From contig NZ_JAAKXY010000006.1 of NCBI RefSeq assembly GCF_011043775.1, positions 310,001-374,000 of the forward strand: a stretch of 64,000 bases of DNA, given 5' to 3'. Below are positions 558 to 10,292 of the stretch, one piece after another (position 1 is the stretch's first letter; each line of letters opens with the position of its first letter). Made by a program: the position numbers and the translations under genes. A model generated the notes under the pieces. It was not told the DNA's origin, did not search any database, and saw nothing but the letters and a program-made list of their open reading frames with translations. The DNA comes from Natronolimnobius sp. AArcel1. GTDB taxonomy: Archaea > Halobacteriota > Halobacteria > Halobacteriales > Natrialbaceae.

Positions 558-1382
558 TCATTGAATATTGTCTATCTTTGTCTTTTTATATTTTCCTTTC
601 ATAATCTTGTCGCCGGTTGGGGTTAATCTGTAGGCAAAGTATCGATCACGGGTGACAAGTCCATGCTGACAGAGAATTTCACATCGGTTTCCGATTCGCT
701 TGTTAGTTGTTGATAAACCAATCTCATTCGGTAATTTAGCTTCCTCACTCTCAGAGAGAGATTTTAAAATTCGATAATCAATTGGTTCCATCCAACCTAC
801 GTGATGATGTATGGATTTTGGGTTGATAGCGATTATATAAATAATAGTATTTATGATGAATCTAATCGAAGTATTAATAAAAACCAGTATATTCACTAGG
901 GCTTCTGCTATGATCCCTACTGAATAGACAACAAGAAGTGCTGCCATCATTAGAATTGGGAGCAAAAGAGCAGGTACAGACTCTCTAGATGGGTTCCCAT
1001 AGACTTGAATTAGCGCATCAAGAAAGCCAGCTACTAAAGCCATAGAAGTTCCTACTAAAAGGATAACTGACAATTTCCAAATTCTTATCAATAATTTATC
1101 ATTAAAAGAAATAATATCTGGCGAATCTCTAGAATTCCCTCTTGGTTTAGAAATTAGAACACCAAATGATACACAAAGTAATATCGAAAACCAGCCAACG
1201 AGTCCCCATCCTATGAATTGACTATTCGTTATTTCTGTGAAAATAGAATTGTCTACATCTACACCAATAAGCAAAACAAGTAACGAGACAAAACCAGACA
1301 CAAGTATAAGTGATAGTCGATAAACACGCATCAACTGTTCCTGATAATACTCATGGGTACTGTTCTTTTCGCTCACAGACAT
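558..1382 (-). CDS. Polytopic membrane protein with C-terminal winged helix
   Basis: A 274-residue protein in strongly AT-rich DNA. Four to five hydrophobic segments occupy roughly residues 20-185. The cytosolic C-terminal 75 residues form a PhiH1-like winged helix starting at YRILKSLSESEE and ending in the wing LTPTGDKIMKGKYK. A membrane-tethered transcription regulator is the simplest reading, but no ligand-binding domain is recognisable. The base composition is far below that of the surrounding genes, and the protein is rich in Ile, Asn and Lys, unlike typical haloarchaeal proteins, which points to recent acquisition. I took the ATG at 1382; an in-frame GTG at 1388 is possible. Confidence 0.6.
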   Translation of the reverse strand: MSVSEKNSTHEYYQEQLMRVYRLSLILVSGFVSLLVLLIGVDVDNSIFTEITNSQFIGWGLVGWFSILLCVSFGVLISKPRGNSRDSPDIISFNDKLLIRIWKLSVILLVGTSMALVAGFLDALIQVYGNPSRESVPALLLPILMMAALLVVYSVGIIAEALVNILVFINTSIRFIINTIIYIIAINPKSIHHHVGWMEPIDYRILKSLSESEEAKLPNEIGLSTTNKRIGNRCEILCQHGLVTRDRYFAYRLTPTGDKIMKGKYKKTKIDNIQ

Positions 1383-1388
1383 AATCAC

Positions 1389-1994
1389 AAATAGAGATAT
1401 ATTAAATACTCTGGTAATTGACTGGTATGCTCTGAAAAATGAATTGTATATTAGATAAATATATGTTGTGTTGGGGTGGGGTTTATAGAGAACGATTTCT
1501 TACTCATTGGTTGTTGAGTTACCTATATACTTATCTCCCTGAGTAACTCGAATAGTTGATTTGCACCCATATGTTGAGAAACCAACTAGAAAATCCAAAA
1601 TTTGCTCTTTGACAGGTAATCTCACAGGAATAGGCAGGAAATCTGTGTTGACACATTCACTACCTAAAAGCCAGGAACGTAAAGCCGGTCTCGAGGATAT
1701 CCTTGAACACTTGTTAGGAACACAACCTACTGAATAACGACAATCACAATCAAATACCGAAGAATTTCCAACTCACTCGAGACACTCCTGAAAGCAACGC
1801 ACTGTCCTACTGTCGTAGTTTGCACTCGGCTACTGTGTTCTGCGCGACAGGCCTTCCGTAGATTTGGAAGATAATTCTACCACTGAAGTGTTGGTATAGA
1901 AAATTAAATTACAGACACAAAAGTCAAATGAACAACCAAAAATACTCGTTCTTCTCAAACAGATTTATTCCTCATAGGTGATATGCTGTGCATC
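1389..1994. other. AT-rich intergenic stretch
   Basis: About 600 bases with low GC and no confident gene. A frame from 1543 to the TAA at 1735-1737 (+ strand) is free of stops for 64 codons and reads like protein near its end (ERKAGLEDILEHLLG), but it lacks an ATG, so it may be a gene remnant. A TATA-like ATTTATTC at 1962-1969 fits the nuclease gene starting at 1995. Confidence 0.4.
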
Positions 1995-5432: not shown

Positions 5433-5719
5433 GACGGACTGTTGTCCCTTGGTAGCGCTGATCACCGACCCTGTTCGGTGTTTGTAGGAAGTGACTATAC
5501 TCGGCGAGATTGCACACTCGCGTTCTGCGCCTTTGAGGGCAAATCAGTGCTGAAACACCCTTCAGTCACACCTGTCCACGGTCGGTTGACCGAGTGGCGC
5601 TGTGACTCCACAGCGTCGTTCCAAGATGGCGATGCCCACGCCGAACTGGCGTCGATGTTCTCGTCATACTGACTGTCAGTGGGTACTATATGGTCCGAGC
5701 CAGTGTTGGTGCAAACAAT
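5433..5719. other. Intergenic stretch ending in a mobile-element terminus
   Basis: No gene is supported in these 287 bases. The right part (5668-5690) matches the terminal 23 bases of the palindromic element at 19722-19808 at 21 positions. A minus-strand frame crosses the region and continues into the esterase gene, but it reads as a shadow. The segment may be what is left of an insertion. Confidence 0.4.
5668..5690 (+). promoter_or_regulatory. Mobile-element end that supplies a TATA box
   Basis: The sequence begins with the perfect palindrome ACTGACTGTCAGT (5668-5680) and ends GGGTACTATA. It differs from 19785-19807 at two positions. The TACTATAT segment (5684-5691) lies about 30 bases upstream of the esterase ATG at 5720, the distance expected for a leaderless haloarchaeal promoter. 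Confidence 0.5.
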
Positions 5720-7027
5720 ATGGACTCGAGTGCGCCTCGAGACGACGACCAAATACAGTCTGGCGACGGCGTAGAACTCCCTGGCACCGAGTTCGCGATT
5801 CCGGACGACGTCACGCCAGTTTCGGAACGTACGCCACAGGCCGACCCTCCGCACGTCCTCGAAATCGGCGACGGTAAGCGAGTCGAATCCGCAACCGCGT
5901 GGCGCGAACAGCGCCGACCACGACTGAAAGCGCTTCTCCGACAGTATGTCTACGGCTACGCGCCGCCGGCTCCAAGGCGGCGCTTCGACGTCGACGAAGT
6001 ACACGAGTCCGTGTTCGCCGGAGCCGCGACGCTGAAACGGATCGCGATCCGATTTCCGGACCTTCCCGAGGAGGCACCCGCAATTCGCCTCGCACTGTTC
6101 GTTCCCACGACGACCGAGACGCCGAGTCCTGTCATGTTCGGGCTCAATATGGCCGGGAATCACACGGTCGCAGATATCCCCGCTCTTTCGGTCCCGGCTT
6201 GGGCCCGAGAGCGCGAAACTGCGGCCGAACATCTCCTCGAGCGAGGGGAGCGGGCGGACTACTGGCAGGTCCGGGAGACAATTGATCGCGGGTACGCGTT
6301 CGCGACGGCGTGCACCTGGGACATTCATCCGGATACCCCTGAGATGGGACTCACGAAGTACTGCTGGCAGCACCACGGGGATGTCCCAGGGGCGCTCCGG
6401 GGTGGGGCACTCGCGGCGTGGGCGTGGGGAATCAGCCGCTGCGTCGAGTACCTCCTCGAGGACCCCGACATCCGAGACGACGCCATCGCCGCGTTTGGCC
6501 ACTCTCGAGCGGGCAAAGCGACTCTGCTGGCGGGTGCACTCGATGAGCGGATCGCCCTGGTGGTCCCGCACCAATCCGGGACGGCGGGCGTTGCACTGAG
6601 TCGCCACGAAGCGACGGCCTCGAGCGGAGAGACGGTCGAACAGATCGTGACTGCGTTCCCTCACTGGTTCAACGGGTACTATCCGATGTTCGCCACGGAC
6701 GTGGGTCGGTTCCCGATCGATCAGCACCACCTCGTCGCCCTCGTTGCTCCTCGAGCGATTCTGGCCACGGAAAGTACGCCCGAGGCAGATGCCTGGACGA
6801 ATCCAGACGCCGCACGGCTGTCGATTCAACTCGCGAGCGACGCGTGGGAACTGCTCGAGGACCGATCACTGAGCGATGGCGAACTCTCTCAAGAGGGTGG
6901 CTCGATCCCGGACGACGCCCCGCCAATTTTGCACTACCGGCGTGACGTCGAGCACACAATGACGCCGGACTACTGGGAGGCGGTGTACGACTTCGCGGAC
7001 CAACATCTCGAGCACGGATCGCGGTAA
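5720..7027 (+). CDS. CE15-like alpha/beta hydrolase (glucuronoyl or acyl esterase)
   Basis: A 435-residue protein with the serine-hydrolase elbow GHSRAGK (Ser262), the form found in carbohydrate esterase family 15 (GxSRxGK). The oxyanion region PHQSGTAG and a late His in DVEHTMTPDYW complete a plausible triad. CE15 enzymes cut esters between glucuronic acid and lignin alcohols; related haloarchaeal and bacterial proteins act on other sugar esters, so the substrate is not certain. There is no signal peptide, so it is probably cytoplasmic. The start at 5720 is favoured by the TATA at 5684-5691; an in-frame ATG at 5690 overlaps that box. It stands alone, downstream of the defence island. Confidence 0.7.
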   Translation: MDSSAPRDDDQIQSGDGVELPGTEFAIPDDVTPVSERTPQADPPHVLEIGDGKRVESATAWREQRRPRLKALLRQYVYGYAPPAPRRRFDVDEVHESVFAGAATLKRIAIRFPDLPEEAPAIRLALFVPTTTETPSPVMFGLNMAGNHTVADIPALSVPAWARERETAAEHLLERGERADYWQVRETIDRGYAFATACTWDIHPDTPEMGLTKYCWQHHGDVPGALRGGALAAWAWGISRCVEYLLEDPDIRDDAIAAFGHSRAGKATLLAGALDERIALVVPHQSGTAGVALSRHEATASSGETVEQIVTAFPHWFNGYYPMFATDVGRFPIDQHHLVALVAPRAILATESTPEADAWTNPDAARLSIQLASDAWELLEDRSLSDGELSQEGGSIPDDAPPILHYRRDVEHTMTPDYWEAVYDFADQHLEHGSR

Positions 7028-7197: not shown

Positions 7198-7422
7198 ATG
7201 GTTTCGTTCGTCTTCCAGTTAGTCGCGCTCGTAATCGTAGTCTTCGGGCTTGCACAGGCCGCGTTCCCTCGGCAGATGAGTCAGTGGGAAGCGCGTGGCC
7301 CTGCTGGCGAGACGCAGATTCAGCCCGGGCCGATGCGCCTCGTCATGATGCGTGTAATGGGACTCGTCGTCGCTGTCGTTGCGCTGCTCGTGGTATTTGG
7401 TAGCCCCTCGCTTCTGTTCTGA
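7198..7422 (+). CDS. Small two-helix membrane protein
   Basis: A 74-residue protein with two hydrophobic segments (residues 3-24 and 49-71) separated by a hydrophilic loop containing FPRQMSQWEARGPAGE. It resembles the many short haloarchaeal membrane proteins of unknown function with a loop near FPRR/QMS. A longer in-frame start at 7075 is unlikely: the extension is not hydrophobic and a TATA-like ACAATATTTTC lies at about 7161-7171, fitting the ATG at 7198. Confidence 0.65.
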   Translation: MVSFVFQLVALVIVVFGLAQAAFPRQMSQWEARGPAGETQIQPGPMRLVMMRVMGLVVAVVALLVVFGSPSLLF

Positions 7423-7511: not shown

Positions 7512-7778
7512 TTATTCGCCGGTGTTGTCGTTCTCGCCATCATCGTCATCGGTATCTTCGTCCGTCGGATCATCTTCTGGGCCGTCACCCTCTGGCTGGG
7601 CAGGCTCTTCTTCGGGTTCGGTCCCAGTTTCGTCGGGGTCGCCAGCATCTTCTTCACCGGGTCCCTCGTCAGCGCAACCGGCAAGCGCAGCTGTGAGACC
7701 GACTGCGAGGACGCCGCCATCCCGCAGCGTTCGTCGTCGAGTCTGTCCTCGAGCGCGACGAGCAGTTCAGTCTGTCAT
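7512..7778 (-). pseudogene. Tat-lipoprotein gene with in-frame TGA at codon 4
   Basis: The minus strand reads ATG ACA GAC TGA from 7778, and then in the same frame 84 codons continue to the TAA at 7514-7512. They encode a perfect haloarchaeal lipoprotein: RRRTLRDGGVLAVGLTAA, lipobox LAGC, then a long Asp/Glu/Pro-rich tail (DETGTEPEEEPAQPEGDG and onward). No ATG, GTG or TTG lies between the TGA and the twin-Arg signal. A TATA-like CTTTATTTGC at about 7823-7832 precedes it. Either a nonsense mutation killed the gene or translation starts at a non-standard codon. The intact tail suggests the loss is recent. Confidence 0.65.
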
Positions 7779-7901
7779 CAGTGTCTCGTATCCATGGACC
7801 GTATAACACGCCCGTGCTTGCAAATAAAGGAGTGACACGACCAGTGACCAGTCACTGCGTCGCCCAGTACCATTATCATGTAGTATGTTAACTACGTACA
7901 T

Positions 7902-8027
7902 ATGGTTGGTCGACTTGTTGCACTGTTCGTCTTCGTCCTGCTTGTGGCCTTTCTCATCGCAGGCCCGACGTTCGCCGAAACAACGGCTGCAGGTGTCTGT
8001 GAGTTCGTTCTGACGCTCGAGTGTTGA
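7902..8027 (+). CDS. 41-residue single-helix membrane protein
   Basis: A short frame encoding MVGRLVALFVFVLLVAFLIA, then GPTFAETTAAGV and a C-terminal tail with two Cys (CEFVLTLEC). One transmembrane helix or an uncleaved signal; the Ala-rich junction near TFAETT could also be a signal peptidase site. A TATA-like CATTATCA at 7871-7878 lies about 28 bases before the ATG, which supports a leaderless transcript. Function unknown. Confidence 0.55.
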   Translation: MVGRLVALFVFVLLVAFLIAGPTFAETTAAGVCEFVLTLEC

Positions 8028-8108: not shown

Positions 8109-8255
8109 CTATAACAGCAACGACACGATCGCGAGGACGACGAAAATCAACACGAGCCACTTCGCAATTGCCATTGTGAACCCGGCGACGCCTGTCGCGC
8201 CCAGTGCTCCTGCGATGATTGCGATCACGAAGAACAGTATTGCAAGTTCTAACAT
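8109..8255 (-). CDS. DUF1328 (UPF0391) family small membrane protein
   Basis: A 48-residue protein: [20 protein letters not shown], then [27 protein letters not shown]. Two short transmembrane helices with Gly/Ala packing motifs are the signature of the DUF1328 family, widespread in bacteria and haloarchaea and often stress-linked; its function is unknown. A TATA-like CCCTATCC at about 8280-8288 supports the ATG at 8255 rather than the long upstream extension. Confidence 0.85.
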
Positions 8256-8494: not shown

Positions 8495-8890
8495 CTACTC
8501 GTTGAGATGCGATCGGTAGCCTTTGGGTTCGAAGCCGCGACGACAGATGACTCGTTTTCTGCCGACCGTAATAGCGCTGATCTGGTCGTCGTCTTCCATC
8601 TGGTCGATAACGGTTGTGAGTCTCTCATCCGTCCAGCCAGTCTCTTCGCGGACAGTTGTTTCGTCTACGCGGCCACCGCGTTTGACGAGCAGTCGAAGGA
8701 TTTTGTCGTCGTCCTGAAGGTCGCGTTCGTCGACGCCGTACTCGATTTCTTCGGCATAACTCAGCGTCTGGTCGTCGCTTGATTCATCGCTCAGTTCGTC
8801 GTCCGTCGTCGTGGACTCAGCTGTCGCCTCTCCGGTCGAATCGGTTGACCAGAGTGAGGCGAGGCGAGCCCGAAGTGCACTCAGTACCAT
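8495..8890 (-). CDS. wHTH protein (DUF7343/MarR-like)
   Basis: A 131-residue protein. Residues 1-55 are a low-complexity acidic Ser/Thr region. The C-terminal 70 residues form a winged helix: [42 protein letters not shown] and the wing [14 protein letters not shown]. This layout is found in haloarchaeal transcription regulators such as those in the DUF7343 group, in which the wHTH often follows a membrane or flexible segment; here no membrane segment is present. Target unknown. The upstream 200 bases (8891-9095) hold no recognisable gene. Confidence 0.65.
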
Positions 8891-9095: not shown

Positions 9096-9326
9096 TTAGA
9101 GGCATTGGCGGGCACTGCGGACGATTTCGTCGACATCGTACTCGTCATCACCCTTCTCGAAGATGACAGTATCGTCAACCCGAACGACAAATACCCCATT
9201 GTCTCCCGGGACCAGCGCGACCGCCTCGAGGTCGGCTTCGAAGGCCGTCAACAGCGCATGTTGGACGTCCTCTGCTCGTGACAAGAACCCACACGGGGCG
9301 CAGTATTCAATCTCGACCGTTGCCAT
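9096..9326 (-). CDS. Rdx/SelW-like thioredoxin-fold protein
   Basis: A 76-residue protein beginning MATVEIEYCAPCGFLSRAED. The CAPC pair (Cys9, Cys12) right after the first beta strand, and the ending strand VIFEKGDDEYDVDEIV, match the Rdx family (SelW/SelT/SelH-like), in which the CxxC or CxxU acts in thiol redox reactions. I chose the ATG at 9326, removing a 16-residue extension that lacks any family similarity. A TATA-like TTTGTATC sits near 9348-9355. Its redox partner is unknown. Confidence 0.8.
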   Translation of the reverse strand: MATVEIEYCAPCGFLSRAEDVQHALLTAFEADLEAVALVPGDNGVFVVRVDDTVIFEKGDDEYDVDEIVRSARQCL

Positions 9327-9409
9327 ACGTGAGTGTTCAGCGTCGAGATACAAAGCACTCCGGGTTGGTTGCAACGCGAGCGGACACTGCGGGGATGGTC
9401 ACAGATCGA

Positions 9410-10219
9410 CTATACGTCGGTCTGGGAGATGGATGCGTCGGAATATCGCTCGATGAGTTGCTCGAGTGAGTCGTGCGTGTTCGTTGTGTGGGGGGCGGTC
9501 AGTGGGGTGATGCTGATTCGGCCTTCGGCGATGGCTCGCCGGTCGGTGCCGTCGGGGTCTGGAATCGTATCGGGATCCATCGACTCCCAGACGCGGTCGT
9601 GAAGGTGAATCTGTCCGCCGTTGCGTTCGGCATCCATCTCGTAACGCTGTGAGGGGCGAGTGAGTTCGACTGGTGCTGGCTCGCCATCTGCAACGGGGAC
9701 GTTGACGTTGAGATACGCTGCATGATCGAAGACACCGGAGTCGAGACCATGGTTGGCAAGGTACGCGGTGATGCGGGTTGCTTCGGCGTACTCCGCAGCA
9801 GTGAGGTCGACGGCCTCGAGCGAGTCGCCGTCGATGGGGACGTACATTGAGGTTGCAATCGCGGGCACGTCGAAGAAGGCGGCTTCGACGGCGGCGCTGA
9901 TGGTTCCCGAGCGCCCGAGGACATACTCGCCCAGATTTGCGCCCTTGTTACAGCCGGCGACGACGAGATCAGGATCCGGGCCGAGTTCGGCCAGTCCGGC
10001 GACGACACAGTCAGCGGGCGTGCCGTGGACGGCGTAGCCAAGGTCGTGCTCGGAGACATCGACTTCGTGCGAGATCGAGCGCCCGCAGGCGCTTTGATCG
10101 GTCGCTGGGGCGACGACGGTGACGTTCGCATCGACCGAGAGCGCGTCATGAAGCGCGCGAATCCCGGTGCTATCGATGCCGTCGTCGTTCGTCAGGAGAA
10201 TCTCGAGTGGCTCGCTCAT
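9410..10219 (-). CDS. surE: 5'/3'-nucleotidase SurE
   Basis: A 269-residue cytosolic phosphatase that removes phosphate from nucleoside monophosphates. The SurE hallmarks are present: the N-terminal metal site LLTNDDGIDSTG, the VVAPATDQSACGRSIS loop with Ser/Asn ligands, the HGTPADCV motif and SGCNKGANLG-like GCNKGANLGEYVLGRSGT. The annotated start is placed at 10219 (MSEPLEILLTNDD), because the 22 residues upstream are not conserved in character. It lies 73 bases downstream of the Rsm22-like gene on the same strand. Confidence 0.93.
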   Translation of the reverse strand: MSEPLEILLTNDDGIDSTGIRALHDALSVDANVTVVAPATDQSACGRSISHEVDVSEHDLGYAVHGTPADCVVAGLAELGPDPDLVVAGCNKGANLGEYVLGRSGTISAAVEAAFFDVPAIATSMYVPIDGDSLEAVDLTAAEYAEATRITAYLANHGLDSGVFDHAAYLNVNVPVADGEPAPVELTRPSQRYEMDAERNGGQIHLHDRVWESMDPDTIPDPDGTDRRAIAEGRISITPLTAPHTTNTHDSLEQLIERYSDASISQTDV

Positions 10220-10292
10220 AGCGGGTGGGTTGGAGGCCGGCGCGAAAAGCCCACCGTTTCGTGCTGTCTCACGAACACCAGTCACCCGACGC

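Follow-up and report, generated by a model that had tools for sequence, protein, structure and literature searches.

The gene at 7512–7778 on the reverse strand of the window (the whole stretch of DNA analysed here, 64,000 nucleotides long) is probably a pseudogene in early decay of a short acidic Tat lipoprotein: its promoter spacing has changed, it would yield no product, and its genus seems to be losing it. Homology to intact genes is combined here with a disabling lesion, an in-frame stop at codon 4; counting against this reading is the lack of a second stop or a frameshift in the 84 codons that follow. The family concerned, short acidic Natrialbaceae Tat lipoproteins, was grouped in this work and is not a named family.

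The broken reading frame

The genome that carries the frame comprises 22 contigs (4.56 Mb). The frame reads MTD, a stop, TARRARGQTRRRTLRDGGVLAVGLTAALAGCADEGPGEEDAGDPDETGTEPEEEPAQPEGDGPEDDPTDEDTDDDDGENDNTGE and a second stop, that is, three codons, TGA, 84 codons and a TAA at 7514–7512. Translation bears out the preliminary description, which had reported ATG ACA GAC TGA (7778–7767) followed by 84 in-frame codons carrying a Tat signal with lipobox and an acidic tail; RRR and LAGC are both read in frame. Its further statement that no standard start separates the TGA from the signal also holds, as none of ATG, GTG, TTG or CTG is found among the nine codons from the TGA to RRR (ACT GCT CGT CGC GCT CGA GGA CAG ACT). 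The features referred to below, all on the reverse strand, are these:

8109–8255, reverse: DUF1328 small membrane protein, the upstream neighbour, which also adjoins the intact orthologue in genomes G024 and G048
7814–7821, reverse: GCAAGCAC promoter box; GCAAGC in 19 of 19 chosen homologues, 43–49 nt from the ATG in 18
7803–7805, reverse: TAT of a TATA-like element, 8 nt past the box, where all 19 homologues have 6 nt
7776–7778, reverse: ATG start codon (M T D, then the stop), likely ancestral, 43 nt 3′ of the GCAAGCAC box, as in both positional orthologues
7767–7769, reverse: in-frame TGA, codon 4; GAG in G024 and G048, TAG in the congener G001
7515–7766, reverse: 84 open codons comprising n-region, Tat signal, lipobox and acidic tail; the TAA at 7514–7512 ends the frame
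7731–7739, reverse: RRR arginine motif; RR invariant in the 20-row alignment
7674–7685, reverse: LAGC lipobox; LAGC invariant in the 20-row alignment

Openness by itself is weak evidence of a gene, because three frames on the opposite strand of the same stretch are open for 105–126 codons, and because a mere 22 of the 756 single substitutions in the 84 codons create a stop. On the homology to G024 and the conserved gene order set out below, the broken frame is nevertheless a gene and not a chance frame. Third-position GC was dropped as a sign of decay: the broken frame stands at 0.50 and so does an intact paralogue in the same genome, which makes the value neutral for the pseudogene reading. 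Elsewhere in the window, a 313-codon stop-to-stop frame at about 561–1499 (reverse strand) has GC of 0.42, 0.34 and 0.30 by codon position, far under that of the other long frames listed, and is perhaps recently acquired DNA. The TGA might also have arisen through an indel and a later compensating indel, under which the other frame would by eye give an acidic n-region; the n-regions vary too much to settle this.

Intact relatives and the promoter box

Intact copies lie beside DUF1328, in the same orientation, in G024 and G048, two species of another genus of the same family. Four neighbours keep their order in the window and both of these genomes: DUF1328, then homologues of 8495–8890, 9096–9374 and 9410–10285. 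The best match in G024 has 58% identity over residues 9–82 (E 4.2e-12 in a one-genome search), partly within the acidic tail. Both orthologues start MTDEPLETDRSPLGRRRTLR, and like the window they combine the place beside DUF1328 with an MTD start, RRRTLR, LAGC, EEPAQPEG..PEDDPT and a GCAAGCAC box at 43 nt. They differ from the window in having glutamate where it has the stop at codon 4, a box-to-TAT spacer of 6 nt against its 8, and a longer tail; in them, moreover, no divergent 41-residue gene separates DUF1328 from the lipoprotein gene (the gap is 80 bp in G024). That divergent gene, at 7902–8027 on the forward strand of the window, encodes a hydrophobic small protein (MVGRLVALFVFV...) that is conserved in G001 (dN 0.08, dS 0.65) and has no Pfam match.

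A family search of 125 genomes gave a list of 71 matches that includes the window itself. We read 33 of the other 70, namely 28 of the 29 loci L069–L097 (the 29th is the window) and five more, and in each of the 33 an ATG opens the gene and no stop intervenes before the signal. Nineteen of the 28 were chosen for their like signal type, after the upstream GCAAGCAC had been noticed; the nine left out are L086 and L091, near copies of L083 and L085, and seven of other types (L081, L082, L084, L087, L090, L095 and L097). The wider lipoprotein group has at least eight Natrialbaceae loci among the matches listed in a separate scan. Neither the window protein nor its G024 orthologue received a Pfam name, two of the 20 aligned members matched DUF7537 weakly (Pfam, best E 0.0012), and the window protein and three homologues tested received no NCBIfam name.

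Compared with the 19 homologues, the window keeps RR, G23, G28, LAGC and the acidic tail, and departs from the family in its signal at L21 (to D; L in 19 of 19), L24 (to V; L in 18 of 19) and S29 (to L; S in 19 of 19). By Nei-Gojobori counting, pS is 0.65–0.75 and pN 0.26–0.37 against G022, G008, G024, G048, G114 and G115, and 0.61–0.82 and 0.26–0.52 against all 19, synonymous sites being near saturation and the ratio therefore rough. The lipoprotein genes of G024 and G048 differ from each other by dS 0.29 and dN 0.04.

The box-to-ATG distance is 43–49 nt in 18 of the 19 chosen homologues and 62 nt in one; that of the window, 43 nt, equals those of G024 and G048, so ATG 7778 is likely, on this positional evidence, the ancestral start. 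TAT or TTT stands exactly 6 nt past the 8-base box in all 19 and 8 nt past it in the window. Among the 14 further homologues (the nine left out and the five added) the GCAAGC box is present in two, L086 and L091. GCAAGC(AC) with TAT or TTT 6 nt on is thus found at 21 of the loci L069–L097, in several Natrialbaceae genera, and this element upstream of short acidic Tat lipoprotein genes may be an unusual BRE or a regulator site.

With a matrix built from the 19, the window site scores 15.0; 18 of the 19 leave-one-out scores, which range from 12.4 to 31.2, are higher, and a chance site within the hydrolase gene outscores it (18.3 vs 15.0). The matrix score alone being unconvincing, it is the exact 8-mer and where it stands that make the case for the box. 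Its 6-nt form occurs three times in the genome and twice in the control, and no gene of the lipoprotein group was seen in the frames read after these occurrences.

Since the TAT lies 27 nt before ATG 7778, the transcript should begin at or near that codon. An upstream mini-frame, MDTRH, whose stop overlaps ATG 7778, was considered as a leader and set aside given the position of the TAT. Leaderless mRNAs make up 72% of the protein-coding transcripts of Haloferax volcanii (PMC4983044).

The congener and the age of the stop

Our sample of the genus consists of two genomes, the window's own (G000) and that of the congener G001. At the matching place G001 reads GTG ACC GAA TAG, with its stop at the same codon 4; its upstream genes are still there, as are some 30 bp beyond the start, and soon after these comes the neighbouring hydrolase gene, reached from its 3′ end. 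The lipoprotein body and the adjoining small gene are missing there, and no GCAAGC box lies upstream of the stump. To judge by this 5′ stump, which has no promoter box and whose stop falls at the same codon, the genus seems to be losing the gene, and we take the difference to reflect loss in G001, not gain in the species of the window. The comparison with relatives proposed in the preliminary description therefore divides: the congener lacks the frame, and an intact one is present in two species of another genus.

Two further observations concern the flanks. A 74-residue frame at 7198–7422 on the forward strand, weakly like DUF2065 (below the Pfam cut-off), is missing at the matching place in G001 along with the lipoprotein body. 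The hydrolase, at 5690–7027 on the forward strand, matches Pfam GCE_fung (glucuronyl esterase, fungi; PF22244, E 6.2e-32).

Acidic Tat lipoprotein paralogues with intact starts exist elsewhere, two in the window genome and one in G001. None of the three has a GCAAGC box, so the two in the window genome are not direct replacements of the broken gene.

Between G000 and G001 the hydrolase gene has a dS of 0.275. Were the stop older than this split and the frame neutral, one would expect, at 0.13 per lineage, some 0.95 new stops, and the chance of seeing none would be about 0.39. The intergenic alignment of the two genomes has three internal indels in about 150 bp, both lineages taken together, which makes 252 undamaged nucleotides less likely still if the stop predates the split. 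The clean frame accordingly points to a younger stop or to residual selection: either the stop is younger and the TAG of G001 arose independently in a stump that was already dead, or selection persisted for longer.

Alternative readings and known systems

The preliminary description had offered four explanations: a recent nonsense mutation, a sequencing error, a rare start and stop readthrough. Of these a recent nonsense event fits best, with positional orthologues, codon constraint, start and box all in its favour. The pseudogene reading is favoured by the intact orthologues in G024 and G048 with four shared neighbours, by pN below pS, and by the same start distance and box; it also gains from the genome's other acidic Tat lipoproteins, whose starts are intact. 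Against continued function stand the 8-nt spacer, the three departures in the signal, the state of G001, the 33 of 33 homologues with ATG and no stop, and the lack of a UGA-reading tRNA among those found. The gene would once have encoded a short acidic Tat-exported lipoprotein of a Natrialbaceae family, with translation beginning at ATG 7778 of a transcript that had a very short leader or none; codon 4 would then have become a stop and the promoter spacing would have shifted, so that lipoprotein would presumably no longer be made, and the rest of the frame would not yet have decayed.

A sequencing or assembly error, with the gene intact in the organism and the TGA an artefact, is unlikely. It would suit a frame that has one lesion and is clean elsewhere, seen in one genome of the species, but codon 4 is a stop in the separate assembly of G001 too, and the gene further departs in its promoter spacing and at three near-invariant positions of the signal.

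That the gene is instead long dead, its frame persisting because few codons are one step from a stop, we regard as quite improbable. The 22 stop-creating substitutions among 756, the open frames on the opposite strand, the changed promoter spacing and signal, and a G001 stump old enough to have lost its box are all in keeping with it; against it, pN is about half of pS or less relative to the six closest homologues compared, 252 nt have passed without a frameshift, and start and box are still recognisable.

Very doubtful is a stop that is read through or bypassed to give small amounts of the lipoprotein. An undecayed downstream frame with codon constraint would fit, as would a stop at codon 4 in both species of the genus with different identities (TGA and TAG). 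The tRNA search supplied no positive evidence for this suggestion of the preliminary description: among 43 matches, 39 named directly by ARAGORN and a further four, which have introns, named in a second pass, none has a UCA anticodon, in a set that also lacks tRNA-Trp and so misses some, and the best tRNA-Sec match falls short of the cut-off and sits at the same place as a serine tRNA. (One of the intron-bearing tRNAs was called glycine CCC; its loop looks by eye like an arginine anticodon.) A stop conserved where the downstream frame is kept, as recoding would leave, was seen in the n-region of 0 of the 33 homologues read; G001 has the stop without the downstream frame, and with its gene body gone that stop has nothing of this lipoprotein family to read into. 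In Archaea, moreover, recoding is unequivocally established solely for Sec, Pyl and a −1 frameshift, according to PMC8037382; frameshifting also occurs in viruses of halophilic archaea, as PMC8211752 reports. A more specific proposal, that the sister species keep different codon-4 stops and that the window frame is under selection through low-level UGA readthrough as a dosage control of a surface lipoprotein in a haloarchaeon, has scant probability.

An unusual start codon after the stop, for which the open frame alone speaks, has a negligible chance, since no ATG, GTG, TTG, CTG or near-cognate start lies between the TGA and RRR, homologues begin at an ATG placed by the promoter box, and the spacing of the box and the MTD of the orthologues both indicate ATG 7778.

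A pseudogene in early decay is an ordinary event, one more gene caught early in loss, and matters little alone. Automatic annotation may leave a gap at such a gene, and box-marked short acidic lipoproteins in several Natrialbaceae genera could aid the annotation of small secreted proteins, most of which are without a Pfam or NCBIfam name.

Haloarchaeal Tat lipoproteins, as described by Storf et al. (2010, PMC2945643), have a twin-arginine signal and a lipobox, and the window has both. A functional member has an uninterrupted frame from a start codon; unlike these lipoproteins, the window has a frame broken by TGA at codon 4, from which no product would be expected.
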